49,131 nt of DNA from an uncultured Lachnospiraceae bacterium (lineage in GTDB: Bacteria > Bacillota > Clostridia > Lachnospirales > Lachnospiraceae), in contig CATLAK010000022.1 of assembly GCA_949878435.1 (NCBI GenBank), forward strand, positions 1 through 49,131. The letters are read 5' to 3'. A program made the translations under genes and the position numbers. How positions within the stretch are numbered: the first letter of the stretch is position 1; each line of letters starts with the position of its first letter. Below, one piece after another: positions 24,563 to 47,428 of the stretch. The notes beneath the pieces are model-generated. The model did not search any database. It had not been told where the DNA came from and worked only from the letters and a program-made list of their open reading frames with translations.

Positions 24563-24904
24563 TCCGCGCGCAAGGTAAGGGCAGCGGCATGGACAGTGAA
24601 GGGGCTTGGCATAGAACGGCACTGGCGGCGCACCATCTCTTTCCCAGTCTTTGCGCAAAATCGGCAATTTCACTTACAGAATGTTGGATTCCTTAGGGCA
24701 AAATCGCCATGAATGGCGATTTTAGGAGCCAAGCGGCATGGATGCCGCCCTGGCTCCGACCCGACCGTTTTGAAACACCTATACACATTCTGTTAGTGAA
24801 ATCCGATTTTAAGAAGAGACTGGGAAAGAGATGGTGCGCCGCCAGTGCCGTTCTATGCCGAGCCCCTTCACTGTCCATGCCGCTGCCCTTACCTTGCGCG
24901 CGGA
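24563..24904. repeat. Giant hairpin element, copy A
   Basis: This 342-bp imperfect palindrome has outer arms at 24563-24650 and 24817-24904 (88 nt each, one difference, which leaves a G-U pair). Between them is a 166-nt core (24651-24816). Inside the core, an AAAATCGG...ATTTCACT...ACAGAATGT stem encloses two hairpins: AAAATCGCCAT/ATGGCGATTTT with a 2-nt loop, and GGAGCCA...GCGGCA/TGCCGC...TGGCTCC. Copy B at 47033-47428 has the same core inverted. No coding potential is convincing; reading frames here are products of the palindrome. It fills most of the gap between the M23 gene and the butyrate promoter. Confidence 0.9.
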
Positions 24905-24942
24905 ATACACACAAATTTTTTGTGAATTGCTCATGGAATTGA

Positions 24943-24971
24943 TTGCAAAAACAAGCCCTCTATGATATAAT
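24943..24971 (+). promoter_or_regulatory. Promoter of butyrate operon
   Basis: TTGCAA, a 17-bp spacer and a consensus TATAAT (24966-24971) lie 84 bp upstream of thl. The -35 box is 38 bp from the end of giant hairpin element A. Confidence 0.88.
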
Positions 24972-24984
24972 AAATCTGTTCGCA

Positions 24985-25002
24985 ATGATAAAAAATTAAC
25001 AA
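24985..25002. promoter_or_regulatory. Candidate Rex (NADH/NAD) operator
   Basis: ATGATAA-N4-TTAACAA matches the known clostridial Rex consensus TTGTTAANNNNTTAACAA at 12 of 14 fixed positions, with a perfect right half. It sits at about +6 to +24 of the predicted butyrate transcript, where a repressor would block transcription. It overlaps an 8-bp inverted repeat GCAATGAT/ATCATTGC (24982-25009). Rex control of these genes is known in clostridia; its presence here is inferred. Confidence 0.5.
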
Positions 25003-25054
25003 TCATTGCAGCAGAAAAATAGAATAAGTTATTTATAAAACGGAGGAAAGAATA

Positions 25055-26239
25055 ATGGCAAAAAAAGTAGTTTTAGCCGGCGCATGCCGTACTGCTATCG
25101 GTACAATGGGCGGTTCCTTAAGCACAGTACCTGCCGCAGAGCTTGGAGCAATCGTAATCAAAGAAGCTTTAAACAGAGCAGGGGTAGCACCTGAAGCTGT
25201 AGATCAGGTTTATATGGGATGTGTTATCCAGGCAGGACAGGGACAGAACGTAGCCCGTCAGGCTTCTATCAAAGCAGGTTTACCGATTGAAGTACCTGCA
25301 GTTACCATGAATGTTGTATGCGGTTCAGGTCTTAACTGCGTGAACCAGGCTGCACAGATGATTATGGCAGGAGATGCAGACATCGTTGTTGCCGGCGGTA
25401 TGGAAAATATGTCCATGGCTCCTTATGCAATTCCTCAGGCACGTTATGGATATAGAATGAACAATGGCACACTGGTGGATACCATGATCAAGGATGCGCT
25501 CTGGGATGCATTCAACGACTATCATATGATCAAGACAGCAGACAATATCTGTGAGGAATGGGGACTTACCAGAGAAGAATTGGATGCATTTGCATTAAAG
25601 AGCCAGCAGAAGACAGAAGCTGCCCAGAAGTCAGGCGCATTCGATGCAGAAATCGTACCTGTTATGGTGAAAAAGAAAAAAGAAATGATCGAGTTCAAGG
25701 TAGACGAGGGACCTCGTGCCGGTTCTACCATGGAAGGACTTGCAAAACTTCGTCCTATCAATCCCAACGGATTTGTGACAGCAGGCAATGCATCCGGTAT
25801 CAATGACGGTGCAGCAGCAATCGTTGTCATGAGCGAAGAGAAAGCAAAAGAATTAGGCGTTAAGCCCATGGCTACTTTCGTAGCCGGCGCCCTTGCAGGC
25901 GTAAGACCTGAAGTGATGGGCATCGGTCCTGTGGCAGCAACCAAGAAGGTTATGGCTAAGACAGGCATGAAGATCGAAGACTTTGATATCATTGAAGCAA
26001 ATGAAGCATTTGCAGCACAGTCTGTTGCAGTAGGAAAGGAATTAGGAATCGACGTTGACAAACAGCTCAATCCTAACGGAGGCGCTATTGCACTTGGACA
26101 TCCTGTAGGAGCTTCAGGCTGCCGTATCCTTGTTACACTGCTCTATGAGATGCAGGCTAGAGGTGCTAAGACAGGTCTTGCAACGCTTTGTATCGGCGGC
26201 GGCATGGGATGCTCAACCATCGTAAAAATGGAAGATTAG
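25055..26239 (+). CDS. thl: Acetyl-CoA C-acetyltransferase (thiolase)
   Basis: The 394-residue cytoplasmic enzyme condenses two acetyl-CoA to acetoacetyl-CoA, the first step to butyrate. The catalytic residues are visible: nucleophile C89 in [10 protein letters not shown]349 in [14 protein letters not shown], and C379 in [18 protein letters not shown] precedes the ATG. It is the first gene of thl-crt-hbd-bcd-etfB-etfA and has the operon promoter at 24943. A 220-bp gap with hairpins separates it from crt. Codon use is strongly biased, as expected for a highly expressed enzyme. Confidence 0.97.
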
Positions 26240-26247
26240 ATTAACGG

Positions 26248-26353
26248 ACATGAAAACATGGACGGAGCTTCTAAGGCGGAATATACCGCCTTGGAAGTGT
26301 CATGTTTCATGTAAGAATCATGTGGGAAGAATGGCTCTGCGGGGTCATTCTTC
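26248..26353 (+). other. Two stem-loops between thl and crt
   Basis: A long hairpin (26248-26312) pairs ACATGAAAACATG with CATGTTTCATGT and encloses CTAAGGCGG/CCGCCTTGG. A second one (26326-26353) is GAAGAATG/CATTCTTC. Neither has a T tract, so they look like processing or mRNA-stability elements, or partial attenuators, rather than full terminators. Confidence 0.55.
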
Positions 26354-26460
26354 ATTGCGCGTTTATGAAGGATGTGCGTTTTGAAGCTTTAAGGCGGAAC
26401 TGAGAAAGCAGGACCTGAAAAGACAGACGCATAAATATAAAAAGAAAAGGAGTCGTGAAA

Positions 26461-27246
26461 ATGGAATTTATCGTATACGAACAAAAGGGCGCATATGGCG
26501 TAATCACCATCAGCCGTGAAAAGGCGCTCAACGCACTCAATTCGGCAGTGCTGGAAGAACTGGACCAGACCCTGGATGCAGTCAATCTTGACGAAGTGAG
26601 ATGCCTGATCCTCACAGGTGCAGGACAGAAGTCCTTTGTGGCAGGAGCAGATATCGGAGAGATGAGCACTCTTACCAAGGCAGAGGGAGAAGCCTTCGGA
26701 AAGAAAGGAAATGATGTGTTCCGCAAGCTGGAGACCTTCCCCATTCCTGTAATCGCCGCTGTCAACGGCTTTGCATTAGGCGGCGGATGTGAGATTTCCA
26801 TGAGCTGTGATATCAGAATCTGTTCTGACAATGCAGTGTTCGGACAGCCTGAGGTTGGACTTGGAATCACCCCCGGTTTTGGCGGCACACAGCGTCTGGC
26901 ACGTCTGGTAGGCGCAGGCATGGCAAAGCAGATGATTTATACGGCAAGGAATATCAAAGCAGACGAAGCATTAAGAATCGGTCTTGTAAATGCGGTCTAT
27001 ACACAGGAAGAGCTGATGCCCGCAGCAGAAAAGATGGCAGCAGGCATTGCCAAGAATGCACCTATCGCAGTGCGCAACTGCAAGAAGGCAATCAATGAAG
27101 GCTTGGACGTAGATATGGATCAGGCAATCGTGATTGAAGAGAAATTATTTGGCGACTGTTTTGAGACGGAAGACCAGAAATACGGCATGGCATTTTTCCT
27201 TGACAAGAACAAAGAAAAAGTGAAAGAGCCGTTTAAGAACTGCTAA
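26461..27246 (+). CDS. crt: 3-hydroxybutyryl-CoA dehydratase (crotonase)
   Basis: The 261-residue enoyl-CoA hydratase-family enzyme dehydrates 3-hydroxybutyryl-CoA to crotonyl-CoA. The oxyanion-hole segments FVAGADIGEM and NGFALGGGCE and both catalytic Glu (E111 and E131 in QPEVGLGITPGFGGTQRL) are present. The ATG at 26461 is preferred over GTG 6 nt earlier because AAAGGAG then sits 8 nt upstream and the protein starts with the usual MEFIVYEQKG. It is the second gene of the butyrate operon. Confidence 0.97.
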   Translation: MEFIVYEQKGAYGVITISREKALNALNSAVLEELDQTLDAVNLDEVRCLILTGAGQKSFVAGADIGEMSTLTKAEGEAFGKKGNDVFRKLETFPIPVIAAVNGFALGGGCEISMSCDIRICSDNAVFGQPEVGLGITPGFGGTQRLARLVGAGMAKQMIYTARNIKADEALRIGLVNAVYTQEELMPAAEKMAAGIAKNAPIAVRNCKKAINEGLDVDMDQAIVIEEKLFGDCFETEDQKYGMAFFLDKNKEKVKEPFKNC

Positions 27247-27313
27247 AAAGAGTTTAACACTGCCCTAAGGCGGTGATAAATACAAAACCAACATAGTATA
27301 GGAGGATTTGAAA

Positions 27314-28153
27314 ATGAAAGTAGGTATTATTGGTGCAGGTACCATGGGTGCCGGAATTGCACAGGCATTTGCAATGACAGACGGATATGAAGTATGTCTT
27401 TGCGATATCAAAATGGAGTTCGCTGAAGGCGGCAAGGCAAGAATCCAGAAAAACATGAATTTCCTGGTAAACAAAGAGAAAATCACACAGGAAAAAGCTG
27501 ATGCCATCATGGCTAAGATTACCTGCGGTTTAAAAGATATTTGTACAGACTGCGATCTGATCGTAGAGGTTGCGCCTGAAAATATGAAGATTAAGAAAGA
27601 TACCTTCAAGGAATTGATGGAAATCGTTAAGCCGGACTGCATGTTCGCATCCAACACTTCTTCTTTATCCATCACAGAAATCGGCGCAGGTCTGGACAGA
27701 CCTATGATCGGTATGCATTTCTTCAATCCTGCAGACAGAATGAAGCTGGTAGAAGTCATTGCCGGTGAAAACACACCTGACGAGATGGTAGAAAAGATCA
27801 AAGCAATCGCTGTAGAAATCGGCAAGACACCGGTACAGGTGAAGGAAGCCCCCGGCTTTGTGGTAAACAGAATCCTGATCCCTATGATCAACGAAGCAAT
27901 CGGCATCTATGCTGACGGAACAGCAAGCGTTGCCGACATCGACGAAGCTATGAAGCTTGGTGCGAACCATCCTATGGGACCTCTTGCACTGGGCGATCTG
28001 GTTGGTCTTGATATCGTGCTTGCCATCATGGAAGTACTGCTGAACGAGACAGGCGATCCTAAATACCGTCCTCATCCACTTCTTCGCAAGATGGTACGTG
28101 CAGGAAAGCTTGGAAAGAAAACCGGAAAAGGTTTCTATGATTATTCTAAGTAA
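27314..28153 (+). CDS. hbd: 3-hydroxybutyryl-CoA dehydrogenase
   Basis: The 279-residue enzyme reduces acetoacetyl-CoA to 3-hydroxybutyryl-CoA with NADH. The N-terminal cofactor loop GAGTMG (7-12) and the catalytic pair H135/E147 in [15 protein letters not shown] are present, as is the C-terminal dimer domain (about 185-279, [13 protein letters not shown]). Length is normal for the family. The ATG at 27314 follows AGGAGGATTTG. It lies 67 bp after crt and 35 bp before bcd. Confidence 0.97.
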
Positions 28154-28188
28154 TACAATATTAAACACTTTATGGAGGAATCAATATC

Positions 28189-29343
28189 ATGGATTTTATG
28201 TTAACAAAACAACATGAAATGGCAAGAACTCTTTTCAAAGAGTTTGCAGAAAAAGAAGTTAAGCCTTTGGCGCAGGAAGTTGACGAGACAGAAGTCTTCC
28301 CCAGAGGAACCGTTGAAAAGATGGCAAAAGCAGGTTTCCTTGGCATTCCTGTACCGAAGGAGTACGGCGGACAGGGCTGCGATCCCCTTACTTATGCTAT
28401 GTGTGTGGAAGAGCTTTCCAAAGTCTGCGGCACCACAGGCGTTATCGTATCTGCCCATACCTCTCTTTGCTGTGATCCGATCATGACTTACGGAACAGAA
28501 GAGCAGAAGCAGAAATACTTAGTTCCCCTTGCCAAGGGCGAGAAGTTAGGTGCATTCGGTCTGACAGAGCCCGGTGCAGGAACGGACGCACAGGGACAGC
28601 AGACAAAGGCTGTTTTAGACGGCGACGAGTGGGTGTTAAACGGCTCCAAGATCTTTATCACAAACGGTAAGGAAGCCGATATCTATGTTATCTTTGCAGT
28701 GACAGATGTTGTCACAGATGCAAAAGGCAGAAGCAAAAAAATGATTTCTGCATTTATCGTGGAAAAGGGAATGCCTGGCTTTACCTTTGGTACAAAGGAA
28801 AAGAAGATGGGTATCCGCGGATCATCCACTTATGAATTGATCTTCACAGACTGCCGTGTTCCCAAAGAGAATCTTTTAGGTCAGGCAGGAAAGGGATTCG
28901 GTATTGCCATGCATACACTGGACGGCGGACGTATCGGTATTGCTGCACAGGCTCTTGGTCTTGCAGAGGGCGCTCTTGACCGCACCATTGAATATGTAAA
29001 AGAAAGAAAACAGTTCGGAAGAGCCATCGGCGCATTCCAGAATACACAGTTCCAGCTTGCTGATATGGCTACCAAGGTACAGGCTGCACAGCTTCTCGTT
29101 TATAAGGCAGCTATGGCAAAGGCAACACAGAAGGTTTACTCTGTAGAAGCAGCTCAGGCTAAATTATATGCGGCAGAAGTTGCAATGGAAGTGACCACCA
29201 AGGCAGTTCAGCTTCACGGCGGATACGGCTACATCAGAGAATACGATGTTGAGCGCATGATGCGTGATGCAAAGATTACCGAAATCTACGAGGGAACAAG
29301 CGAAGTGCAGAGAATGGTTATCTCAAGTGCGCTGCTTAAGTAA
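28189..29343 (+). CDS. bcd: Butyryl-CoA dehydrogenase
   Basis: The 384-residue acyl-CoA dehydrogenase-family flavoprotein reduces crotonyl-CoA to butyryl-CoA. With EtfAB it forms the electron-bifurcating complex that also reduces ferredoxin. FGLTEPGAGTDA and FITNGKEADIYVIFA are the FAD/substrate signatures, and the catalytic base is E368 in EIYEGTSEVQR. TGGAGGAATC precedes the ATG. The gene sits directly upstream of etfB and etfA, as in most butyrate producers. Confidence 0.97.
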   Translation: MDFMLTKQHEMARTLFKEFAEKEVKPLAQEVDETEVFPRGTVEKMAKAGFLGIPVPKEYGGQGCDPLTYAMCVEELSKVCGTTGVIVSAHTSLCCDPIMTYGTEEQKQKYLVPLAKGEKLGAFGLTEPGAGTDAQGQQTKAVLDGDEWVLNGSKIFITNGKEADIYVIFAVTDVVTDAKGRSKKMISAFIVEKGMPGFTFGTKEKKMGIRGSSTYELIFTDCRVPKENLLGQAGKGFGIAMHTLDGGRIGIAAQALGLAEGALDRTIEYVKERKQFGRAIGAFQNTQFQLADMATKVQAAQLLVYKAAMAKATQKVYSVEAAQAKLYAAEVAMEVTTKAVQLHGGYGYIREYDVERMMRDAKITEIYEGTSEVQRMVISSALLK

Positions 29344-29387
29344 ACCGGAACATAGAAAAAGATTAATTTATAAGGAGAGATAATACA

Positions 29388-30170
29388 ATGAAAATTGTTG
29401 TTTGTGTTAAACAGGTACCTGATACCAAGGGCGGCGTTAAGTTTAATCCCGACGGTACTCTTGACAGAGGCGCAATGCTTACCATTATGAATCCCGACGA
29501 TAAGGCAGGATTGGAAGCAGCGCTTAGATTAAAAGATCAGTACGGTGCAGAGGTAACGGTAGTTACCATGGGTCTTCCCAAGGCAGAAGAAGTGCTCCGC
29601 GAGGCAATGGCTATGGGTGCAGACAAGGGAATCCTTGTAACAGACAGAGTGCTCGGCGGCGCAGATACATGGGCAACCTCCCAGACACTTGCCGGTGCAA
29701 TCCGCAATCTGGAATATGACCTGATCATCACAGGACGTCAGGCAATCGACGGCGACACCGCACAGGTTGGTCCCCAGATTTCTGAGCATCTTGGAATCCC
29801 CGTTATTTCTTATGCACAGAAGATTCAGATCGAAGGCGACAGCGTAATCGTTGAGCGTCAGTATGATGACAGATATCACGTATTAAAGGCAAAAATGCCC
29901 TGCCTGATCACAGCCCTTGCTGAATTAAATGAGCCCCGTTATATGACTCCCGGCGGAATCTTTGACGCATACAATGCAGAGATTACCGTATGGGGAAGAG
30001 CAAATTTAGTTGATGTTGAGGATTCCAACTTAGGACTTAAGGGATCACCCACCCAGATTGCCAAAGCTTCCGACAAGGTAAGAAAGGGAGCAGGCGAGAA
30101 GGTAAATCTTGATCCTACAGAATCCGTGGAATATATTATCGATAAATTAAAAGTAAAACATGTAATCTAA
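29388..30170 (+). CDS. etfB: Electron transfer flavoprotein, beta subunit
   Basis: The 260-residue small subunit of Etf starts MKIVVCVKQVPDTKGG and contains NPDDKAGLEAALRLKD and the signature around GRQAIDGDTAQVGPQISEHLG. In the bifurcating Bcd-Etf complex this subunit takes part in binding NADH and the beta-FAD. AAGGAGAGA precedes the ATG. It lies 44 bp after bcd and 21 bp before etfA. Confidence 0.97.
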   Translation: MKIVVCVKQVPDTKGGVKFNPDGTLDRGAMLTIMNPDDKAGLEAALRLKDQYGAEVTVVTMGLPKAEEVLREAMAMGADKGILVTDRVLGGADTWATSQTLAGAIRNLEYDLIITGRQAIDGDTAQVGPQISEHLGIPVISYAQKIQIEGDSVIVERQYDDRYHVLKAKMPCLITALAELNEPRYMTPGGIFDAYNAEITVWGRANLVDVEDSNLGLKGSPTQIAKASDKVRKGAGEKVNLDPTESVEYIIDKLKVKHVI

Positions 30171-30191
30171 TTACTATGATGGAGGTTCAAA

Positions 30192-31235
30192 ATGAATATT
30201 CAAGATTATAAAGGAGTATTTGTCTTTGCACAGCAGGTAGACAATGTACTCAGCGGAATTGCTTTAGAATTAGTTGGCAAGGGAAAAGACCTTGCGAAAG
30301 ATTTAGGCACAGAAGTAACGGCAGTTTTGGTCGGCAGCGACGTGAAGGGACTTGCAGATGAGCTTGCTGAATATGGTGCAGATAAAGTTATCGTTGTGGA
30401 TGATCCCGAATTGAAAGAATACAGGACAGAGCCTTACGCACATGCCCTGGCATCTGTGATTAATGAGTTCAAGCCTGAAATTTTCTTAGTTGGCGCTACC
30501 GCAATTGGACGTGATTTAGGTCCCAGAGTGTCTGCAAGAATCCACACAGGTCTTACAGCAGACTGTACACAGCTTGATATCGGTGATTTCCCGATCAACC
30601 CCATTCCGGGCAAAGAACAGCTTCACAATCAGCTGCTCATGACACGTCCTGCATTCGGCGGAAACACAATTGCAACCATTGCATGTCCTGATTTCCGTCC
30701 CCAGATGGCGACCGTCCGTCCCGGCGTTATGCAGAAAGCGTCCAGAGAAGCTGGCAGGAAGGCAGTTGTGGTAGAGTTCAATCCTGGATTTACACCCAAC
30801 GATAAGTATGTAGAAATCTTAGAAGTTGTAAAGGCAGTTTCAGACGTAGCCGATATCATGGATGCAAAGATCTTAGTATCCGGCGGACGCGGCGTTGGAA
30901 GCCCTGAGAACTTCAAGATTCTGGAAGACCTTGCAGAAGTAATCGGCGGCACAGTAAGCTGCTCACGTGCAGTCGTAGATGCAGGCTGGAAGCCCAAAGA
31001 TTTACAGGTTGGACAGACAGGAAAGACCGTTCGTCCCAACGTATACTTTGCAATCGGTATTTCCGGTGCAATCCAGCATGTAGCAGGCATGGAAGAGGCA
31101 GACATCATCATTGCAATCAACAAGGATGACACAGCGCCTATCTTCGACGTAGCCGACTATGGTATCGTAGGTGATTTGAACAAGATCGTTCCTGCGCTCA
31201 CCGAAAGATTGAAAGCAGAACTTGCTGCAAAATAA
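30192..31235 (+). CDS. etfA: Electron transfer flavoprotein, alpha subunit
   Basis: The 347-residue large Etf subunit has the N-terminal AANH-like domain (FVFAQQVDNVLSGIALELVGKG) and the C-terminal FAD domain with SGGRGVGSPENF, GQTGKTVRPNVYFAIGISGAIQH and INKDDTAPIFDVADYGIVGD. It shuttles electrons from NADH to Bcd and ferredoxin. ATGGAGGTTC precedes the ATG. It is the last gene of the butyrate operon, followed by a strong terminator. No rubredoxin domain is fused to it. Confidence 0.97.
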   Translation: MNIQDYKGVFVFAQQVDNVLSGIALELVGKGKDLAKDLGTEVTAVLVGSDVKGLADELAEYGADKVIVVDDPELKEYRTEPYAHALASVINEFKPEIFLVGATAIGRDLGPRVSARIHTGLTADCTQLDIGDFPINPIPGKEQLHNQLLMTRPAFGGNTIATIACPDFRPQMATVRPGVMQKASREAGRKAVVVEFNPGFTPNDKYVEILEVVKAVSDVADIMDAKILVSGGRGVGSPENFKILEDLAEVIGGTVSCSRAVVDAGWKPKDLQVGQTGKTVRPNVYFAIGISGAIQHVAGMEEADIIIAINKDDTAPIFDVADYGIVGDLNKIVPALTERLKAELAAK

Positions 31236-31246
31236 GATATAGGAAG

Positions 31247-31278
31247 CTGGCAGGAATGAACTTTCCTGCCAGTTTTTT
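31247..31278 (+). terminator. Terminator of butyrate operon
   Basis: CTGGCAGGAA pairs perfectly with TTCCTGCCAG, followed by TTTTTT. Confidence 0.93.
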
Positions 31279-31395
31279 ATGCGTAGGTTCGCAGATGAAA
31301 GTTTGCTGCTGGTGCAGCATGCGGACTGCGCGGCGGGCAGGGAGAAAAACTTCCCCTGCTCGATTGGCATATAAAAAATCAGAGGAAGAGGCAAA

Positions 31396-32076
31396 ATGAA
31401 AAGAATTTTAGTCGTGGAGGATGACAGAGGACTCCGTGAAGGAATAGAGCTGGCGCTTAGAAGGGATGATTTGACCTTTACCTTATGTGAAAGCATTGCA
31501 AAGGCAAGGGAGGCGCTGGCAGGCAGCGCGGTGTTCGATCTGATACTGCTGGATTTGAATCTGCCCGACGGAAGCGGCTATGACCTGCTAAAGGAGGTAA
31601 AGGCAGGCAGGGACATCCCCATCATCATCATAACTGCAAATGACATGGAGATCGACGAGGTGCGAGGCTTGGAACTGGGGGCGGAGGATTACATTACCAA
31701 ACCGTTCAGCCTTATGGTACTCCGCGCCAGGATCGACAAGGCGTTAAAGAATGCCGGGAAGCAGAAAAAAGAGGTCTGGCGTTTTGGAGAGTTGTCCTTT
31801 TGCTTTGAAGAGATGAAGATTATGCGCGGAGAGGAAGAGATTGTCCTAAGTAAAACGGAACTTAAGCTGCTGCAGATTCTCGTTGAAAATCAAAATATTG
31901 TCATGGGAAGGGAAAAGCTGATCGATAAAATATGGACTGACGGGGCAGAATTTGTGGATGAGAATGCTTTGTCGGTGGCGGTCGGGAGGCTTAGGAGCAA
32001 ATTGAAGGAGGACGGAGAAGGACATCTGCAGACGGTCTATGGAATCGGCTATGTGTGGAAAGGAGAAATTAGATGA
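31396..32076 (+). CDS. OmpR-family response regulator
   Basis: The 226-residue regulator has a receiver domain with acidic pocket E8-D9-D10 and phosphoacceptor D53 (LILLDLNLPDGSGYDLL). The C-terminal winged helix (about 130-226) contains LSKTELKLLQILVENQN and YGIGYVWKGE. GAGGAAGAGG precedes the ATG. It overlaps the kinase gene by 4 nt and is followed by an ABC transporter. This is the arrangement of antimicrobial-peptide sensing modules of the BceRS type, so it probably activates the transporter genes. Confidence 0.92.
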   Translation: MKRILVVEDDRGLREGIELALRRDDLTFTLCESIAKAREALAGSAVFDLILLDLNLPDGSGYDLLKEVKAGRDIPIIIITANDMEIDEVRGLELGAEDYITKPFSLMVLRARIDKALKNAGKQKKEVWRFGELSFCFEEMKIMRGEEEIVLSKTELKLLQILVENQNIVMGREKLIDKIWTDGAEFVDENALSVAVGRLRSKLKEDGEGHLQTVYGIGYVWKGEIR

Positions 32077-32909
32077 AATTCCCGCGATTTGGCGTGATGA
32101 GGCGGCTTGAGGAGATGCTTGAGGACGCCATCAATGATACCTTTGAAGAACGCGCTTATGATGAGAGCAGGCTTTCCAGGCTTGAGGTGAAGTGGAAAAA
32201 ATTCCTATCTTCTTCTGTAAGTTCTAAACACCGGCTGCTTGAAGAACAGAAGAAGATCAAGATGCTGATCTCCGATATCTCCCACCAGACGAAGACACCT
32301 CTTGCCAATATCCTTCTATATGCCCAGCTTCTGCAGGAAAAGGAGACAGATCCGGAACTTGTGCCTATCGTAACAAATATCAAAGAGCAGTCGGAGAAGC
32401 TGGATTTTTTGATACGGTCACTGGTGAAAGTCTCCCGGCTGGAAAGCGAAGTGCTTGTGCTTAAGCCGAAACGGGAAGCAATCATGCCGTGTATCAGGGC
32501 AGCAGCCGCAGGGGCGGAGGAAGCGGCGGCTTTAAAAGGAATCCGGCTTAGCATAGAGGAGACGGATGTAAAGGCGAATTATGACCGGAAGTGGACGGAG
32601 GAAGCGCTTGGAAATCTGCTGGACAATGCTATCAAATACAGCCCTGCAGGCAGCGAAGTGAAGGTACAGGTAAGAGACTATGAAATGTTTGCCGTCGTTT
32701 CCGTGACGGATGCAGGGATTGGAATCAGGGAAGAGGAGCAGGCGCAAATTTTTGAGCGTTTTTACAGAAGCGCGGAAGCAGCGCAGGAAAAAGGCGTGGG
32801 AATCGGTCTTTATCTGGTGCGGGAGATCGCGGCAAAGCAGGGAGGCTATGTGCGGGTGAAGTCAAGGCATGGCGAGGGAAGTACCTTTTCCTTTTATATG
32901 GCAAAATAA
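32073..32909 (+). CDS. Sensor histidine kinase without membrane segments
   Basis: The 278-residue kinase has a charged N-terminal helix (1-60), the phospho-accepting H71 in SDISHQTKTPLANIL and the ATPase domain with N box (LGNLLDNAIKYSPAG), DAGIGI and GVGIGLYLVREI. No hydrophobic stretch long enough to cross the membrane is present, unlike BceS kinases, which have two. It presumably gets its signal from a partner, perhaps the FtsX-type permease downstream. It is coupled to the regulator gene by ATGA. Confidence 0.9.
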   Translation: MKFPRFGVMRRLEEMLEDAINDTFEERAYDESRLSRLEVKWKKFLSSSVSSKHRLLEEQKKIKMLISDISHQTKTPLANILLYAQLLQEKETDPELVPIVTNIKEQSEKLDFLIRSLVKVSRLESEVLVLKPKREAIMPCIRAAAAGAEEAAALKGIRLSIEETDVKANYDRKWTEEALGNLLDNAIKYSPAGSEVKVQVRDYEMFAVVSVTDAGIGIREEEQAQIFERFYRSAEAAQEKGVGIGLYLVREIAAKQGGYVRVKSRHGEGSTFSFYMAK

Positions 32910-32999
32910 AGATTCTTTCAAAACTGTTAGATTTGAGACAGAGGAAAGAAAGGTTTTCCTGTTATAGTTTAAAAAAGAAAACTTACAGGAGGCAGTCTT

Positions 33000-36229: not shown

Positions 36230-36234
36230 TCAGA

Positions 36235-38276: not shown

Positions 38277-38339
38277 TGGTTTGTTGATAGAATGAAGAAG
38301 GCAAAACAAATTATAGTGTGACTGGGAGAGTCGATAGAT

Positions 38340-38561
38340 ATGACACAGGCGATTTTAAGCGATGGAAAACGGAAGAAAGAGGAAAAGAGAAGGATAAAGG
38401 AGCGCAGGAAAAGAAGGGAGCGTATCAACTCGAGAATCGAGCGGGCGGTATCTTTTCTGGCAATCCTTTTATGTGTTGTTTTTTCTGTGTTAGATGTATT
38501 GGAGAAAAAGAGGATAGCGGGCGAAAGAGGAAGAAAGGAAGAGGCAGCAGGCGATGAGTGA
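38340..38561 (+). CDS. Small basic membrane protein, hypothetical
   Basis: The 73-residue protein is strongly basic at the N terminus (Lys/Arg/Glu-rich coiled region, 10-35) and has one hydrophobic segment ([19 protein letters not shown], about 36-54) followed by a charged tail. GGGAGAG lies 10-16 nt upstream of the ATG. It overlaps mtnA by 8 nt, so mtnA translation is probably coupled to it. No function is known. Confidence 0.6.
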
Positions 38562-39624: not shown

Positions 39625-39640
39625 CTGCCTGCGGAAATAA

Positions 39641-39684
39641 AAAGGTATCCTCCCACAGGAAAACCGTTGGAGGATACCTTTTTT
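39641..39684 (+). terminator. Terminator of mtnA
   Basis: AAAGGTATCCTCC pairs perfectly with GGAGGATACCTTT (13 bp), followed by further T residues. With A residues on the left side it may act in both directions. Confidence 0.93.
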
Positions 39685-39804
39685 ATAAGCTCTGATGTTT
39701 CTATCACCCGTATAACCAAAATTCATACATGATAGAGTAAAATATGTATGTCGTGTGTCGTCTGCAGCGCATTGTATATAAGTTATTGGACAGAAAAAAT
39801 TCTT

Positions 39805-41493
39805 CTAAGCTTTTAACTTGAATTGTCCGACTAATCCTTCCAGATTGTCAGACTGTGCGGACAGTTCTTCACTAGTAGCGGAAGTTTCCTGCGCTGCTGC
39901 TGAATTATTCTGAATGACTTCAGAAATTTGTTCCACGCCCATTTCAAGCTGTTTCATGGCATCGGCCTGCTCGTCGGATAATTCGCTGATTTCCTTTGTG
40001 GATGAGGCAAGCATTTTGATACCTTCGATGACAGCTTCAATGGCGGCTGTGGTTTTGGCTGTGATTTCATTTCCATGTTCGATTTCTACAATGGAGTTTT
40101 CAATCAGTTTCTTTGTATTAATTGCGGAATTGGCGCTGTCTGATGCCAGCTTGCCAATCTGATCTGCCACGACGGCAAATCCTTTTCCGGCTTCTCCTGC
40201 TCTTGCGGCTTCGATGGAAGCGTTGAGAGATAGAAGATTTGTCTGGGAAGCGATGTCTTCGATTTCAGCGATGATGTTTGCAATCTGCTTAGAAGTATCG
40301 TTGATCCGTCCCATTGCGGTGTTGAGAAGCTTGATATCTTCATTGCTCTTTTCGGCGGCTTTTTCAAATCCTTCTGCGTCTTTATAAGAACGTTTTGCCT
40401 TTTCGGAACTGTGTACGACTGCCTCTGTGATATTTTGAATGGTCGCAGTCAGTTCTTCCACGGAACCTGCCTGATCGGTAGCGCCTTCTGCCAATGCCTG
40501 CGCGCTTTCAGCCATCTGACCGGCGCCTAATGCAACCTGCTCGGCAGCTTCATTGATATTTTTGAGTGTGCCGTTTAAAGAAGATATAATTGTTTCAAGG
40601 GCATCCGACAGGGCTTTAAAATCACCCTTAAATTCTATGTCGGAAGTGATAGTGAAATTGCCTGTGGCAGCTTCATTAAGGCATCTGCTCAATTCATTGA
40701 TATACAGTTTCAGGCTGTCAGTAGCTTCCCTGAAAGAGTCGGTCATCTCGCCGATTTCATCAGGATACATTTTTTCAATTTCAATATCCAGATTCCCCTG
40801 TGCAAGTTTAGCGGATGCTTCCTTGACATGCGTGATAGGCTCTGAAAACAATTTTGCCACAAATTTGGAGAACTTTGTAGCGACTAAAACGGCAAGCAAA
40901 GCAACAAGAACGATTACGGCTAAAATAATATAAGTTTGAATCCCTAAAGAACTGGACACTTCATTTCCCATTTTCACATTTAAATCGATCAATCCTTCTA
41001 CTGCATTGGTCAACTGCTTCAGGGCAGGTTTGCCTTGGGAAATCAACATGTCGCGGGCTTCATCATTTTTGTTTTGCATTGCCAGTTCCTGCACTTCGGC
41101 AAATATGCTGCGGTATTCAGGCAAAGTTTCTTCAATGATTTTAACGTATTCCTTTTCTTCGGCTGTGTTGCAATGCTGCACCATCGTAACGACGGCAGCA
41201 TTTGTAATTTCCTGTGTCTGCGCTAATTCGTCTGCAGATTCCTGCAAATCTGCCTCATCTTCTAAAAGAATCATTTCTCTTATAATTGCAGGTTCCTTAT
41301 TCAGATAGGTGCTGAAGATACCAATTTCACCTTGGGAAAATCCATTGGAGACCAAAGCGTTACTGTATTGGATATCGTGGAGCAGCAAAAAAATAAGACC
41401 TAAAATACCAGAGATGCTGGCGATGGCAACAACCAGTGCAAAACAATACCTCAGCTTCTTCTCGACCTTCATATTTTTAATCTTGTTTAACAT
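39805..41493 (-). CDS. Methyl-accepting chemotaxis protein
   Basis: The 562-residue receptor has a first membrane segment (about 15-37), a periplasmic-type four-helix bundle (about 40-185, Glu/Ala/Gln-rich), a second segment (about 190-207), a HAMP domain (about 210-262) and a long coiled-coil signalling domain. The hairpin tip [27 protein letters not shown] is characteristic. It ends in the C-terminal [25 protein letters not shown] lies 12 nt before the ATG. It signals to CheA/CheW, which are not in the window. The ligand is unknown. Confidence 0.95.
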
Positions 41494-41563
41494 AAAATTC
41501 TCTTATCCTCCCTTTGGGAACAAATTATGTCTGATTCCCACATTTTTACTGCGATTCAGCCTT

Positions 41564-41575
41564 TGCACCGGTGCA
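41564..41575. promoter_or_regulatory. Perfect palindrome upstream of chemoreceptor gene
   Basis: TGCACCGGTGCA is a perfect 12-bp palindrome 71 bp upstream of the chemoreceptor start. It may be a regulator site. No clear promoter could be assigned in the 267-bp gap 41494-41760. Confidence 0.3.
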
Positions 41576-41741
41576 TGAAAATACGGGCATAAGTCTGAAA
41601 GGGTAAGGTAATTTTATCTGTGAACAGCTTAGATACAATACTTTATTATGATGTCAAGGTTCGGGTTCTGAAATAATATATCAGTTAATAGATATATTGC
41701 ATAATTAGAATATGTTTCATTATACCATTTTTGGGAAAAAT

Positions 41742-41770
41742 TACAATAAAATGGGCAAAATCAAAAGCCC
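41742..41770 (-). terminator. Weak terminator of hydrolase gene
   Basis: On the minus strand, GGGC-N10-GCCC spans the stop codon of the hydrolase and is followed by ATTTTATT. The stem is short. Confidence 0.4.
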
Positions 41771-43128
41771 AAATTTTTCAGTTCAGATACGATCCGTATA
41801 TAGGCTTCAATGACATCGAACCCTTTATAGTCTTCCCGTTTCAAATCGATCATATCTCCGTGGGAGATTCCCCGCCTGCCGCTGCTGGCAAAAACTGTCT
41901 TGAAGTGTCCCCATTTGGCTGACTCGATGCTTACGAGTCCGTCGTTTTTGGGGGCGCCGGTGAAGAACATAATGAGGTTGGGGATGCTCAAAAGATGGTC
42001 CCCGAGGGTGTGCTTTACATAAGAAGCATAACTTTGATAATAGACGCATGGGGCGTCCTTATAGGTTTCATTGAATGTTTTGCAAAACTCACTGGAAAGC
42101 TGCTTGCTGGCATGGTAACAGTCCGGCGCCGGATCGCCCAGCCTCTTATAGGTGGAGTCGAAAAGGGAGGCAACCAGACGGTAAACAGAATCCGGCAGTT
42201 TATTTAAAACATTTAAGAGTTCCGATCCTCTGTGGGGAGTGGATATGGTGGTCAGGGACGCTACCTGATTTTCCATATGTAAGCCTGAGATTAAATAGCG
42301 GGCGTCAAGACCTCCCTTGGAGTGGGCGATAATATTGACTTTGTCACAGTGGTTCTCTGCAAGAATCTTCTCTATTGTATCCCTAATAATCAGCGCATTG
42401 TCCTCGATCGTTCCCCATGCCTGCTGGTGACCGTAATAGACAGTGGCACCGTTTCTCACCAATTCCGCTGGAATGCGCCCCCAGTAATTGAAATACTGCA
42501 GATCCCGAAATCCAATCCCGTGGAGCAGGACGATGGGATATTTGGTAGCGCAGACTTCAGAATCCGCCCGAATCTGTCTGTTTTCAAACCGATAGACCTC
42601 CGCATCATATTCAATTTTTGCCCGCCGGCTCAGATACCGGGCAAGAAACAGATGAATGAGCGGTATCCACAAAAAGAAGACAAACACCACCCTTTTCCAG
42701 ACGCCAAGGCTGCGGCAGGTACACAGAATTCGTATGCATCCGTTCAAAATAAGAAAATAAAAGAAGAAAAAAGCAGCCACCGCGTCAAACAAGACGACAG
42801 ACATTCCGCTGCCGGAAAACAGAACAAGCGCAGGGGTATATAGTTTAAAGAAATAAAGGAAAGGCTGTGCAAGAATCCCCCAGAAACACAACCGGAAGAT
42901 TTTCGTTGCCCCTTTCATGATCTTAAGCCGGAGAGAGACCGGATTCTTGTCCTTGTAAGGCATAAGATGCAGGTAACATAGGACAGCGGCATATATAAAA
43001 ATCAGCAATACAGAAAAAACGGTATACAGCAGGTATTCTCCATGTTTATACTCCCAGTCGTAACATATGTCATAGGCAATTACGCGCAGTAACTGCAGCA
43101 GTAAAATAATATGCGGTAAAAAAATCAT
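41761..43128 (-). CDS. Membrane-anchored alpha/beta hydrolase (lipase-like)
   Basis: The 455-residue protein has about four or five hydrophobic segments in the first 165 residues, then an alpha/beta hydrolase domain. Lipase motifs are PIVLLHGIG (oxyanion hole), nucleophile S270 in IIAHSKGGLDARY, a probable Asp in KNDGLVSIESAKWG and His in GISHGDMID. The layout resembles triacylglycerol lipases or acyltransferases attached to the membrane. The active domain probably faces outward, which is inference. AAAGAGGGATGG precedes the ATG. It is monocistronic. Confidence 0.85.
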   Translation of the reverse strand: MIFLPHIILLLQLLRVIAYDICYDWEYKHGEYLLYTVFSVLLIFIYAAVLCYLHLMPYKDKNPVSLRLKIMKGATKIFRLCFWGILAQPFLYFFKLYTPALVLFSGSGMSVVLFDAVAAFFFFYFLILNGCIRILCTCRSLGVWKRVVFVFFLWIPLIHLFLARYLSRRAKIEYDAEVYRFENRQIRADSEVCATKYPIVLLHGIGFRDLQYFNYWGRIPAELVRNGATVYYGHQQAWGTIEDNALIIRDTIEKILAENHCDKVNIIAHSKGGLDARYLISGLHMENQVASLTTISTPHRGSELLNVLNKLPDSVYRLVASLFDSTYKRLGDPAPDCYHASKQLSSEFCKTFNETYKDAPCVYYQSYASYVKHTLGDHLLSIPNLIMFFTGAPKNDGLVSIESAKWGHFKTVFASSGRRGISHGDMIDLKREDYKGFDVIEAYIRIVSELKNLGF

Positions 43129-43292
43129 TTTCCATCCCTCTTTTGAATAAATCAGTTGTTGGTTCTATCAATGATTTCATTTTACCATAATTTGCACGTG
43201 AGAACAAATCTGCCACATTTCTTTTCTCGGGGATGAACAAAAATCGTCAAATATTAACAGGAATGGCAATACCGCAAGAAACCTTAAGAAGC

Positions 43293-43298
43293 TATAAT
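43293..43298 (+). promoter_or_regulatory. Probable -10 box of GH94 operon
   Basis: A consensus TATAAT lies 28 bp before the GH94 start, but no good -35 is found at 16-19 bp. The promoter may need an activator. Confidence 0.4.
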
Positions 43299-43326
43299 AA
43301 AATCATAAGGAAGGGAGGAGTCTGCT

Positions 43327-45525
43327 ATGCAATACGGGCATTTTGACGATAAGAACAGAGAGTATGTGATCGACAGGATTGACCTGCCGGCTTCATGGAC
43401 CAATTACTTAGGCGTGGAGGATACCTGTGTGGTGGTCAATCACACGGCAGGGGGGTACATGTTCCATAAGACACCGGAATATCACAGGGTAACCAGGTTT
43501 CGGGGAAACAGCGTTCCTATGGACCGCCCGGGTCATTATGTATATCTTCGGGATGAGGAAAGCGGGGACTACTGGAGCATTTCCTGGCAGCCTGTGGGAA
43601 AGCCGCTTAAAGAAGCGGATTACAGATGCCGCCATGGACTGTCTTACACCACCTATGAATGCAGCTACAGTAAAATCAGGGCAAGCCAGACCCTCTGCGT
43701 ACCGATTGGGGATGCGCTGGAGCTGTGGGATGTAAGGATAAAAAATGAGGATCAGGTGCCGCGGAGCCTTAAGGTATTTTCCTATTGCGAATTTTCTTTT
43801 CACCACATTATGATAGATAACCAGAATTTCCAAATGAGCCTGTACTGTGCGGGGAGCAGTTACGAGGACGGTATCATCGAGCACGACTTGTTTTACGAGG
43901 AATATGGCTATCAATATTTTACCATGAACGAGACGCCGGACGGATTTGACTGTCTGAGAGATAAGTTCTTAGGGCTGTATCACACGGAGGATAACCCTAA
44001 GGCGGTAATCGATGGCAAATGCGGAGGATCTTTTGAAAAAGGAAATAATCACTGCGGCAGCCTTCAAAAGGATATCCTGCTTGCCCCCGGAGAGGAGAAG
44101 AGGATTCTCTTTATCTTAGGGGAAGGAAATAGGGAGGCAGGAAGGCGTGCAAGGGAAAAATACCAGGATTTCAAAGCGGCGGATCAGGCATACGAAAATC
44201 TGCGTCTTTACTGGAAGAAGAAACTTGATAAGCTGCAGATTCATACCCCCAATCAGGGGATGAATACACTAATCAATACATGGACTTTGTATCAGGCGGA
44301 AATCAACGTTATGTTCTCCAGGTTTGCCTCCTTTATCGAAGTGGGAGGAAGAACCGGTCTGGGGTATCGGGACACGGCGCAGGATGCAATGACGATTCCC
44401 CACTCCAATACGGAAAAGTGCAGGCAGAGAATTGTAGAGCTGCTTAAGGGACTGGTGTCGGCAGGGTATGGCTTACATTTGTTCCAGCCGGAATGGTTTG
44501 AAAAGGACAAGAAAGAAAAGCCTTTCAAGTCCCCCACGGTGATACCGGATTTTAACAAGAAGAATATGGTCCACGGCATAGAAGATGCCTGCTCGGATGA
44601 CGCCCTATGGCTGATTGCCGCAATCACAGAGTATGTAAAAGAGACGGGAGATGTGACGTTTGTAGATAGAATCGTTACCTATGCAGACGGCGGCGAAGGC
44701 AGCGTTTATGAGCATATGACAAAGATTCTGGATTTTTCTGCCAGTCAGGTGGGGCAGCAAGGCGTCTGCAAAGGACTTCGGGCGGACTGGAACGACTGCC
44801 TTAACTTGGGCGGCGGCGAAAGCGCCATGGTATCCTTTCTCCACTACTGGGCAATTGAGAATTTCCTCCAACTTGCAGAATATCTGGGGAAGAAAGAGGA
44901 TGTAAAGAAATATACTGCCATGGCAGAGAAGGTAAAAAAAGTCTGCGACGAACAGCTTTGGGATGAGGAATGGTTCATCAGGGGAATCACGAAAAACGGA
45001 AAGAAGATTGGAACCAAGGAGGATAAGGAAGGAAGAGTCCACTTAGAGTCCAATGCATGGGCAGTCCTCTCCGGCGCTGTTGATGAGGAAAAGGGAAGGA
45101 AGGCAATGGAATACTATGACGCGCTGTGTCCCTATTATCAGAATGACAAGATTGAAGTGCGGGAGTCGGAGCCTTATTCTTATTGCCAGTTCGTGATGGG
45201 CAGGGACCACACCGGCTTTGGAAGGGCAAGGCATCCCTTTATGACGGGCACGGGGGGATGGGCATATTTCAGCGCCACGCGGTATATCTTAGGCATCAGA
45301 CCTCAGCTGGATTATTTGGAGATAGATCCTTGTATTCCTGCCTATTGGGAAGGATTTTCAGCGGACAGGGTCTGGAGGGGCGCTTTGATTCACATACAGG
45401 TGGAAAACCCGAATCATAAGATGAAGGGCGTAAAGGAAATCTGGCTGGATGGTCAGAAGGTGGAAAAGATTCCTGTGATGGAAGAAGGCTCAGAGCATCA
45501 GGTGAGAGTCGTGATTGGAAAATGA
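43327..45525 (+). CDS. GH94 glycoside phosphorylase (chitobiose phosphorylase-like)
   Basis: The 732-residue cytoplasmic phosphorylase has an N-terminal beta-sandwich (about 1-265), a helical linker, an (alpha/alpha)6 barrel (from about 310) and a small C-terminal beta domain. GGRTGLGYRDTAQDAM, HSNTEKCRQRIVELLKGL and GYGLHLFQPEWFE match GH94 enzymes of the N,N'-diacetylchitobiose phosphorylase branch more than cellobiose phosphorylases. The acid-bearing DWND motif is at 487-490. It splits a beta-disaccharide with phosphate into a sugar 1-phosphate and a free sugar. It is shorter than characterised members (about 800 residues). AAGGGAGGAG precedes the ATG, and a mutase follows. Confidence 0.88.
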   Translation: MQYGHFDDKNREYVIDRIDLPASWTNYLGVEDTCVVVNHTAGGYMFHKTPEYHRVTRFRGNSVPMDRPGHYVYLRDEESGDYWSISWQPVGKPLKEADYRCRHGLSYTTYECSYSKIRASQTLCVPIGDALELWDVRIKNEDQVPRSLKVFSYCEFSFHHIMIDNQNFQMSLYCAGSSYEDGIIEHDLFYEEYGYQYFTMNETPDGFDCLRDKFLGLYHTEDNPKAVIDGKCGGSFEKGNNHCGSLQKDILLAPGEEKRILFILGEGNREAGRRAREKYQDFKAADQAYENLRLYWKKKLDKLQIHTPNQGMNTLINTWTLYQAEINVMFSRFASFIEVGGRTGLGYRDTAQDAMTIPHSNTEKCRQRIVELLKGLVSAGYGLHLFQPEWFEKDKKEKPFKSPTVIPDFNKKNMVHGIEDACSDDALWLIAAITEYVKETGDVTFVDRIVTYADGGEGSVYEHMTKILDFSASQVGQQGVCKGLRADWNDCLNLGGGESAMVSFLHYWAIENFLQLAEYLGKKEDVKKYTAMAEKVKKVCDEQLWDEEWFIRGITKNGKKIGTKEDKEGRVHLESNAWAVLSGAVDEEKGRKAMEYYDALCPYYQNDKIEVRESEPYSYCQFVMGRDHTGFGRARHPFMTGTGGWAYFSATRYILGIRPQLDYLEIDPCIPAYWEGFSADRVWRGALIHIQVENPNHKMKGVKEIWLDGQKVEKIPVMEEGSEHQVRVVIGK

Positions 45526-45607
45526 AAGGGTAACGGCAGACCGGCGGCGCATTTCATGCGCAGCTGGCAGGCAGTCATGTGAAGCAGAAGGAACGGAGGG
45601 AAAGCGG

Positions 45608-47023
45608 ATGATTAAATTTGGTACCGGCGGCTGGCGGGCAGTGATAGGGGATGGATTTACAAAGGAGAATATTCAGATTCTTGCAAGGGCAGTGGCAGAC
45701 AAGATGCGCGCCGAAGGGGTGGAAGAGAAGGGAATCGTAATCGGTTACGACCGCAGATTCCTTTCCAAGGAAGCCATGCAGTGGGCAGGAGAGGTGTTCG
45801 CAAAGGAAGGGATTACGGCGTACCTGATCAACAAATCAGCGCCTACGCCTCTTGTCATGTTTTATGTGATGAAGCATGAGTTCCCCTATGGAATGATGGT
45901 GACGGCAAGCCACAATCCGGCAATTTACAATGGCATCAAGGTCTTCACCAAGGGAGGACGGGATGCAGATGAGGTTCAGACGGCGGAACTGGAAAGCTAC
46001 ATCAAAGATTTGACCGATATTCCGCCGGAGGAGATGGAGTATGACGAGGCGGTGGAAAAAGGGCTGATTAAAGAAATCTATCCCTTAAATGAATACCTGG
46101 ACAACATCATAGCGACAGTGGATATGGATAAGATCAGAAATGCCGGACTTAAGGTCGCCTTAGATCCCATGTACGGGGTAAGCGAGACTTCCTTAAAGAC
46201 CATTCTGCTCACCGCAAGATGCGATGTGGAGACCATTCATGAAAGGCATGATACCTTGTTTGGCGGCAAACTCCCTGCCCCCACAGCGACGACGCTGCGC
46301 GCCCTGCAGAATTACGTGATAGACAAAAAATGTGATATCGGCGTTGCAACCGATGGGGACGCAGACAGAATCGGCGTCATCGATGATACGGGAAGATTCC
46401 TGCATCCAAATGATATTCTGGTGCTGCTCTATTACTATCTGGTCAAATATAAAGGATGGAAGGGACCTGTGGTCCGCAACATTTGTACCACCCACATGCT
46501 GGATAAGGTGGCGGAAAAATTCGGGGAGAAATGTTATGAAGTTCCCGTTGGGTTCAAGCATATTTCAGCTAAGATGTATGCCACAGACGCAGTCATAGGC
46601 GGGGAGTCCTCAGGAGGTCTTACCGTGCGAGGGCATATCAAGGGGAAAGATGGAATCTATGCGGCGGCGCTGCTGGTGGAGATGATCGCAGTTACAGGGA
46701 AAAAGCTGTCGGAGATCGTAAAGGATATTGAGGCAGAATGCGGTTCCATATCGATGGAGGAACGGGATTACAAGTTCAACCAGGAAAAGAAGGACAGAAT
46801 ACGCAAGGTATTGCTGGAAGAGAAAAGATTGCCGGAACTGCCTTTTGAAATCAGAGATGTTTCTTATTTGGATGGAAGTAAGGTGTACTTTGAGAATGGA
46901 GGGTGGGTGACGGCAAGGTTTTCGGGGACGGAACCGTTGCTTCGGATTTTTTGTGAGATGCCGCTTAAGGAGGATGCTGCAAAGGTGTGTGGGATATATG
47001 AGGAGTTTTTTGGGTTGAAGTAA
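45608..47023 (+). CDS. Phosphohexomutase (phosphoglucomutase/phosphomannomutase family)
   Basis: The 471-residue enzyme interconverts hexose 1- and 6-phosphates. The four-domain family layout is visible: the phosphoserine loop TASHNPAIYNG (S101), metal-binding DGDADR (249-254), sugar-binding GGESSGG and C-terminal phosphate-binding RFSGTEP. The start at 45608 gives the standard MIKFGTGGWRAVIGDGF and follows GGAGGGAAAGCGG. It lies 82 bp after the GH94 gene, so it probably converts the phosphorylase product to the 6-phosphate. Giant hairpin element B starts only 9 bp after its stop codon. Confidence 0.93.
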   Translation: MIKFGTGGWRAVIGDGFTKENIQILARAVADKMRAEGVEEKGIVIGYDRRFLSKEAMQWAGEVFAKEGITAYLINKSAPTPLVMFYVMKHEFPYGMMVTASHNPAIYNGIKVFTKGGRDADEVQTAELESYIKDLTDIPPEEMEYDEAVEKGLIKEIYPLNEYLDNIIATVDMDKIRNAGLKVALDPMYGVSETSLKTILLTARCDVETIHERHDTLFGGKLPAPTATTLRALQNYVIDKKCDIGVATDGDADRIGVIDDTGRFLHPNDILVLLYYYLVKYKGWKGPVVRNICTTHMLDKVAEKFGEKCYEVPVGFKHISAKMYATDAVIGGESSGGLTVRGHIKGKDGIYAAALLVEMIAVTGKKLSEIVKDIEAECGSISMEERDYKFNQEKKDRIRKVLLEEKRLPELPFEIRDVSYLDGSKVYFENGGWVTARFSGTEPLLRIFCEMPLKEDAAKVCGIYEEFFGLK

Positions 47024-47032
47024 GGTTGTGGC

Positions 47033-47428
47033 AGGCATCAGCTCCGGCAGCTTGGCGTGTGCGGCATGGCGCTGGGAGGGGCGGCTGGCTTCTATGACGG
47101 AGAAAGGACCACGGACAGGCGGCGGTACATAGTATGGTTTCAAGTCTCTTCTCAAAATCGGATTTCACTAACAGAATGTGTGTAGGTGTTTCAAGGCGGT
47201 CGGGTCGGAGCCAAGACGGCATCCGTGCCGTTTGGCTCCTAAAATCGCCATCCATGGCGATTTTGCCCTAGGTTTTTCTACATTCTGTAAGTGAAATTGC
47301 CGATTTTTCGCAAAGACTTGAAACCATACTATGTACCGCCGCCTGCCCGTGGTCTTTTCTCCGTCATAGAAGCCAGCCGCCCCTCCCAGCACCATGCCGC
47401 ACACGCCAAGCTGTCGGAGCTGATGCCT
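47033..47428. repeat. Giant hairpin element, copy B
   Basis: This 396-bp imperfect palindrome has outer arms at 47033-47147 and 47314-47428 (115 nt each, four differences, all transitions). They enclose a 166-nt core (47148-47313) that is the reverse complement of the core of copy A with about 16 differences. The arms differ in sequence and length from those of copy A but share scattered blocks (for example GCGGCATGG and GGCGGCG). In the second internal hairpin GCGGCA/TGCCGC of copy A becomes ACGGCA/TGCCGT, a compensated change. No transposase is adjacent. It may also serve as the transcription end of the phosphohexomutase gene. Confidence 0.9.

Follow-up and report, generated by a model that had tools for sequence, protein, structure and literature searches.

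Introduction

TwoAYGGAY (RF01731 in Rfam) is an RNA family recognized by two apical hairpins with AYGGAY loops carried on an outer stem; in its table row in Weinberg 2010 (PMC2864571) it is entered with 'y' for RNA and 'n' in the other two columns, and with the human gut, gamma-Proteobacteria and Clostridiales as sources. Binding of its loops by the RNA-binding protein CsrA has been proposed (PMC4333381). Two cores of this family, each enclosed in a giant palindrome, lie in the 49,131-nucleotide stretch of DNA analysed here (referred to as the window), which comes from an uncultured Lachnospiraceae bacterium (assembly GCA_949878435.1, contig CATLAK010000022.1, positions 1 to 49,131). The cores have the two apical AYGGAY hairpins on an outer stem, but the Rfam model stops where the long arms of the palindromes start, and the available portions of the openly licensed papers on TwoAYGGAY mention neither mobility nor long arms; nor do they describe as many as 78 matches in one genome, ends of transposons, duplicated target sites or arms specific to each copy.

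Several described systems resemble these hairpins in part. A few copies are similar to miniature inverted-repeat transposable elements (MITEs) of the IS4 family, being short, sharing their ends with an insertion sequence of sister species and being flanked by target duplications; they differ in that the arms make up almost all of the inverted repeat and undergo joint rewriting, that most hairpin copies keep the interior without the ends and that two kinds of end occur on one core. Symmetric arm change, multi-base patches and spacer inversion link the hairpins to template-switch systems, in which arm homogenization and spacer inversion are the marks reported for yeast inverted repeats (PMC8604942) and the quasipalindrome mutations of Escherichia coli provide an example of homogenization (PMC7202029). 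The available portions of these papers describe short arms (about 10-16 bp for the inversion examples) at isolated sites, whereas here 190 of 197 copies from five genomes have arms no shorter than 30 nt, within a mobile family. Long perfect hairpins with arms that evolve together are also found as concerted inverted repeats in the mitochondria of hairworms (Nematomorpha), for which template switching and parasitic behaviour were weighed by the authors (PMC6649704), but these are not bacterial, and the part of the paper at hand describes no common core and no transposon ends. Repetitive extragenic palindromic (REP) elements are likewise high-copy intergenic palindromes but, according to the part of PMC3733652 available, are 20-40 bp long with a common tag at one end, while the TwoAYGGAY hairpins measure roughly 230-560 bp and combine a fixed core with variable arms. 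The accessible part of the openly licensed literature on bacterial hairpin MITEs and arm homogenization contained no bacterial mobile family of this kind, and none with two kinds of end on one core. Each ingredient (the RNA family, this type of insertion sequence, the copying process) is known by itself, and their combination, as far as this literature was seen, is not.

It is considered quite probable that both window elements are copies of a high-copy family of hairpins with a TwoAYGGAY core, which are likely to be moved by transposases in trans and whose arms are most likely kept complementary by rewriting of one arm from the other at the DNA level. If true, this would provide a home and a life cycle for an RNA family with no assigned function, and the symmetric change of hairpin arms, usually taken as a sign of selected RNA structure, may arise by DNA copying alone. 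The two causes can be separated by comparing G-U with A-C mismatches and by considering transversions and symmetric insertions or deletions (indels). With some 75 marked copies in one genome, the family would also be a natural system for measuring palindrome correction and core inversion in an SbcD-bearing bacterium.

Two giant palindromes on a TwoAYGGAY core

The inverted repeats of the two elements are located at 24562-24664/24803-24905 (copy 1) and 47033-47161/47300-47428 (copy 2). Each element encloses a core of 166 nt, matched by RF01731 over the full model at 78.4 bits in copy 1 and 86.3 bits in copy 2. The components are as follows.

24562..24650, + strand: copy 1 5' arm, 89 nt; 88/89 complementary to 24817-24905
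24651..24816, + strand: copy 1 TwoAYGGAY core, 166 nt; RF01731, 78.4 bits, cut-off 43, model 1-168
24709..24714, + strand: copy 1 first AYGGAY loop, degenerate (ATGAAT); from the sequence, with the loop position given by the RF01731 alignment
24738..24743, + strand: copy 1 second AYGGAY loop (ATGGAT); from the sequence and the RF01731 alignment
24817..24905, + strand: copy 1 3' arm, 89 nt; pairs with the 5' arm
47314..47428, - strand: copy 2 5' arm (core orientation), 115 nt; 111/115 complementary to 47033-47147
47148..47313, - strand: copy 2 TwoAYGGAY core, 166 nt; RF01731, 86.3 bits, cut-off 43, model 1-168
47250..47255, - strand: copy 2 first AYGGAY loop (ATGGAT on the minus strand); from the sequence
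47221..47226, - strand: copy 2 second AYGGAY loop (ACGGAT on the minus strand); from the sequence
47033..47147, - strand: copy 2 3' arm (core orientation), 115 nt; pairs with the 5' arm

The two elements are in opposite orientation, with 84% identity between 24624-24843 and 47121-47340 and 92% identity between the cores extended by 20 nt per side. Both apical loops are intact in copy 2, and copy 1 retains one intact loop. A preliminary description of this DNA, made from the sequence alone, had reported two near-perfect giant palindromes in opposite orientation with 166-nt cores about 90% identical by eye, and a compensated G-C to A-T change in an internal stem, all of which were found again, the paired change at alignment columns 103 and 118. 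Its arm pairing for copy 2 was also reproduced, and that for copy 1, given as 87/88, is 88/89 over arms of 89 nt. The core, which it did not recognize as a named family, is TwoAYGGAY.

Folding, proposed there as a check, gave energies of -276.6 kcal/mol (copy 1) and -325.9 kcal/mol (copy 2), which lie 29 and 37 standard deviations below those of shuffled sequences (100 each) and therefore exclude chance for both hairpins; the predicted fold of each element would be a single long stem with two small hairpins at its tip. An Rfam scan of the window found neither a self-splicing intron nor any other family besides RF01731 above the cut-off at either element (a lower-scoring overlapping match to a family within one clan, at some place in the window, is unlisted) and no further family to E 0.1 at copy 1, and included no retron-specific test.

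High copy number, constant core and variable arms

The genome from which the window comes (G000; 3.40 Mb in 51 contigs, 86% complete) contains 78 RF01731 matches, 77 of them above the cut-off with scores of 54-120 bits. A search for the core across 98 genomes, this one included, found it in 22 genomes belonging to 6 of the 58 genera, with at least 22-25 matches in each of five further genomes of the same genus (25 candidates scored per genome) and with 39 and 49 matches in two fully scored relatives, G019 and G035. The search detected no core in 14 control genomes or among the plasmids and phages covered. Relatives in the same genus include Lachnospiraceae bacterium IMSAGC_005 (G008) and MAG SC0320_S5_9 (G013); in the latter, one copy (L338, G013:C36) is placed about 175 bp from a flavin mononucleotide (FMN) riboswitch.

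Arms of at least 30 nt flank 75 of the 78 cores in the own genome (33-193 nt), 84/86 in G019 and G035 together (two partial matches of 88 being left out) and 31/33 in G013 and G008. In length and anatomy the resulting hairpins are unlike REP/RAYT systems, which consist of short tagged palindromes and a linked Y1-type transposase. Beyond the 25 nt adjoining the core, the arms of 159 copies (own genome, G019 and G035) are 97.48% complementary over 9598 paired columns, and 49 of these copies are perfect. Between copies of the own genome, on the other hand, arms are mostly unrelated: where cores are 93-96% alike, the median arm identity is 0.54 versus 0.51 for a shuffled arm (95 pairs). A minority of copies have common arms, up to 95% alike. 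The proposal that the family is structured and joins a constant core to arms specific to each copy stands, while its portrayal as the reverse of a normal MITE describes most copies and not the minority, which resemble a MITE in having arms and ends in common.

All 73 own 5' arms with a length of at least 45 nt are rich in purines (mean 0.69, G 45%), as are 63/78 in G019 and G035. As a feature of an RNA strand this was dropped, since a palindrome reads alike on both strands.

Paired change of the arms at orthologous sites

Orthologous hairpins were compared between the own genome and G013, G008, G019 and G035, and between G019 and G035. Among 31 pairs considered, 23 were used, one having been dropped for lack of arms and seven for an arm identity below 0.6; the 20 columns adjoining the core, which carry fixed asymmetries, were left out of the count. 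Over 1379 columns there are 151 symmetric substitutions, compared with 15.3 expected for independently changing arms. In 66 columns the difference is one-sided or unmatched. Indels behave in the same manner, with 131 symmetric and nine one-sided columns. Transversions account for 70 of the 151 symmetric changes and for 12 of the 59 clear one-sided changes. The closely related G019 and G035 (95.6% identity at the one locus compared), taken alone, provide 15 pairs with 88 symmetric versus 60 one-sided substitutions and 47 symmetric versus 19 one-sided indel columns.

The clearest cases are G000:C42:3421 and its G013 counterpart, with 11 symmetric and no one-sided substitutions, and G000:C14:51741 and its G019 counterpart, with 24 symmetric and two one-sided. 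At G019:C51:8432 the tip of the left arm resembles a neighbouring G035 copy and the right arm fits the left, while the right-arm sequence of G035 persists further out; judged from these sequences, the right arm appears to have been rewritten from the left.

At G000:C13:19143 one flank of the hairpin is 89.8% similar to its counterpart in G008 (L224) and the opposite flank 99.6%, as would be seen if a tract of recombination had its end at the hairpin.

Transposon ends and probable mobility

One group of copies ends in CAATGTCATTAAGTT, which is present on both sides (with up to three mismatches) in 13 of the 159 copies scanned. Three such hairpins of the own genome, C6:32286, C38:10255 and C2:29819, are flanked by 10-bp target duplications with zero, one and two mismatches, respectively. 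Insertion sequences 1.57-1.73 kb long and delimited by the same CAATGTCATTAAGTT are present in six sister genomes (G028, G021, G032, G019, G015 and G022), with ten identical bases outside both ends in four of them (G028, G019, G015 and G022). The two transposases tested, those of G032 and G022, match PF01609, and that of G032, the one tested on NCBIfam, is of the IS4 family (NF033592, 176 bits, cut-off 115). Another group of copies ends in GTAACAGTTCAG and shows 8-bp duplications with at most one mismatch in three of four copies (two own, one from G019).

These few copies look, from their sequences, like ordinary MITEs, with common arms, common ends and target duplications. Because of the shared ends, the 8- and 10-bp duplications and the matching IS4-family insertion sequence in sister species, they have probably been moved in trans. 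Mobilization in trans, as suggested by the preliminary description, probably holds for a few members of the family; the two elements on which it was based have no such ends and belong to the family by their core.

In the own genome, C5:84423-84594 (L112) is a 172-bp hairpin with arms of the IS4-type-end group and without the core. In G030, pairs of inverted GTAACAGTTCAG ends lie 171 bp apart (C1:150064, C14:36605, C14:76046 and C45:61760), which suggests a separate small MITE family.

Proposed mechanism and alternative explanations

The state of the arms is better explained by copying at the DNA level than by selection for pairing in RNA. In 159 copies the arm mismatches comprise 109 G-U and 95 A-C pairs (p 0.36; own genome, G019 and G035), so no excess of G-U is apparent, and nearly half of the symmetric changes are transversions, which, like the symmetric indels, cannot pass through G-U pairs and therefore point to DNA-level copying as the cause. 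Under this mechanism, the whole unit of arm, core and arm would insert with transposon ends at its tips. The hairpin would then fold out at replication, and either the polymerase would use the opposite arm as a template or mismatches in the folded hairpin would be repaired, leaving the same new sequence in both arms. Arms would consequently drift fast as a matched pair, older copies would lose their transposon ends and the slower-changing core would end up as the sole feature common to old copies. The same copying would invert the core between the arms and may lengthen the arms by taking in adjacent DNA. The idea that the palindromes survive for lack of SbcCD was rejected, as SbcD scores above cut-off in G000, G008, G009, G013, G019, G034 and G035.

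Several observations weigh against this explanation. Where IS4-type ends flank a copy on both sides (13 copies), a 10-bp duplication within two mismatches is missing in ten, the insertion sequences of G021 and G032 lack ten identical flanking bases and no full insertion sequence with CAATGTCATTAAGTT ends was found in the draft of the own genome. The putative link of the GTAAC-type GTAACAGTTCAG ends to IS66 comes from a single exact end among 15 IS66 loci, on a G035 fragment (L239). Window copies 1 and 2 have neither IS4-type ends nor a readable target duplication. Some orthologues changed on one side: G000:C5:41213 and G000:C13:19143 differ from G008 only one-sidedly (9 and 16 columns, respectively), and G019:C16:43874 has seven one-sided substitutions and one symmetric. 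Nor are near-perfect arms universal across sister genomes, single copies being complementary at 51/67 (G015), 55/69 (G030), 69/83 (G018) and 59/70 (G001) positions, or 76-84%. Finally, the copying is read from a pattern and not from experiment, and all of the genomes are drafts, in which assembly can smooth small differences between arms and flip a core between near-perfect arms.

A more far-reaching version of the DNA-level explanation is offered tentatively and is, on balance, doubted. TwoAYGGAY might be the heart of a mobile palindrome, of a new kind, that renews its ends: arm copying would preserve the near-perfect hairpin, erase old transposon ends, copy flanking DNA across, capture new ends on both sides and so pass the core between transposase families. 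The reason for considering it is that in G019:C8:11042 and G019:C32:18467 IS4-type ends (three mismatches) lie inside GTAAC-type ends on both sides.

The alternative that the entire hairpin is a transcribed structured RNA, with arm complementarity kept by compensatory mutation under selection for pairing, as the preliminary description had suggested, is considered unlikely. The core is indeed an Rfam family with covarying pairs, two of which were added in Rfam 15 according to the portion of PMC11701678 available, and its stems in the own genome show G-U far above A-C mismatches (129:19 in the inner and 104:32 in the outer stem, from 66/74 cores, counts that are not independent events and that bear on transcription only indirectly). 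This excess means that the method is able to detect an RNA-like pattern, and the arms do not display it; the transversions and the 131 symmetric indel columns against nine one-sided ones are equally hard to reconcile with such selection. Even in the core, the corresponding ratios in G019 and G035 (26:40 inner and 82:59 outer, from 58/83 cores) show no significant excess. The arrangement of close copies described below, which suggests that core orientation matters, counts in favour of this alternative, but promoter-like sites around the elements point outwards more often than inwards.

Slightly less probable still is that the core is a small-RNA sponge for CsrA and has spread by transposition through the benefit that a high copy number brings to the host. 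Conservation of the AYGGAY loops is good among the own cores, and CsrA occurs in 33/37 genomes of the genus, including G008, G009, G013, G019 and G035. It was found neither in the own genome, for all its 78 matches (in an assembly 86% complete), nor in G034, with at least 24 matches among 25 candidates scored, and the proposal is silent on the arms. As a full explanation it was therefore rejected, although it is compatible with DNA-level copying of the arms.

There is little to recommend the idea that fold-back synthesis of a hairpin intermediate made the arms perfect in a single event during insertion, with nothing but decay since. Some arm-sharing copies are perfect (C5:53317, 88/88; C3:238209, 86/86), as it predicts, but so are copies without recognized transposon ends (C14:8449, 71/71; C3:44039, 81/81). 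Orthologous arms have moreover changed symmetrically after the species split, and most ortholog pairs would need to be independent insertions at the same site.

Assemblers can mask differences of a few percent by merging. An artefact in which both arms of an imperfect hairpin are collapsed into one consensus is nevertheless hardly credible: drafts were used (G008 stems from a single-cell genomics paper, PMC6977353, as far as the available part shows, and G013 is a metagenome assembly) and several contigs end within hairpins, but the same arm differs by 15-37% between related species in the clearest pairs, which is beyond merging, and the assemblies still contain residual mismatches, one-sided indels and asymmetries fixed close to the core.

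Core orientation, paired copies and promoters

The core is reversed in six of 26 flank-matched ortholog pairs, at five separate loci, a reversal that spacer inversion would produce, with the reservation that drafts may misorient a core between near-perfect arms. Copies separated by at most 700 bp are arranged minus-plus, with the 5' sides of their cores facing, in 19 of 20 cases (G000, G019 and G035; some pairs are orthologous), and three further minus-plus places occur in G013 (L229, L232 and L332). Since the ends are symmetric, transposition should be indifferent to core orientation, yet the minus-plus arrangement prevails; some orientation-dependent effect of the core is therefore likely.

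Promoter-like sites (up to three mismatches) in the 180-bp flanks on both sides of 75 own copies number 77 outward and 44 inward, with a weak bias in the relatives (87 outward and 73 inward, 110 copies), as if insertions between a promoter and its gene had been purged. Promoters feeding the element were rejected, as outward sites outnumber inward ones. An orientation-fixed cis-regulatory role was also rejected: the genes flanking the 75 own copies occur in all four combinations without a clear rule (26 minus-minus, 21 minus-plus, 20 plus-plus and eight plus-minus; ten copies counted in reverse).

Genomic context of the two window elements

Copy 1 is located between divergent peptidase and thiolase genes, and copy 2 follows a phosphoglucomutase/phosphomannomutase gene.

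23368..24444, - strand: M23-family peptidase gene, adjoining copy 1 and transcribed away from it; PF01551, E 7.9e-16
25055..26239, + strand: thiolase gene, adjoining copy 1 and transcribed away from it; PF00108, PF02803
45515..47023, + strand: phosphoglucomutase/phosphomannomutase gene, ending 9 bp before copy 2; PF02878, PF02879, PF02880, PF00408

In a comparison of empty and filled sites, as also proposed in the preliminary description, the site of copy 1 is empty in two relatives, the corresponding flanks being separated by 30 nt in G008 and by 85 nt in G013; the junction is too diverged for a target duplication to be read. Copy 2 is at least partly present at the same site of G008, the contig of which ends within the element. 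There, IMSAGC_005 (G008:C172, L144) matches 1508 bp of the window (45600-47107, the end falling within an arm of copy 2) at 100% identity, whereas at the thiolase locus the identity to this genome is only 93%; the identical stretch represents either a recent transfer or a contaminant contig.

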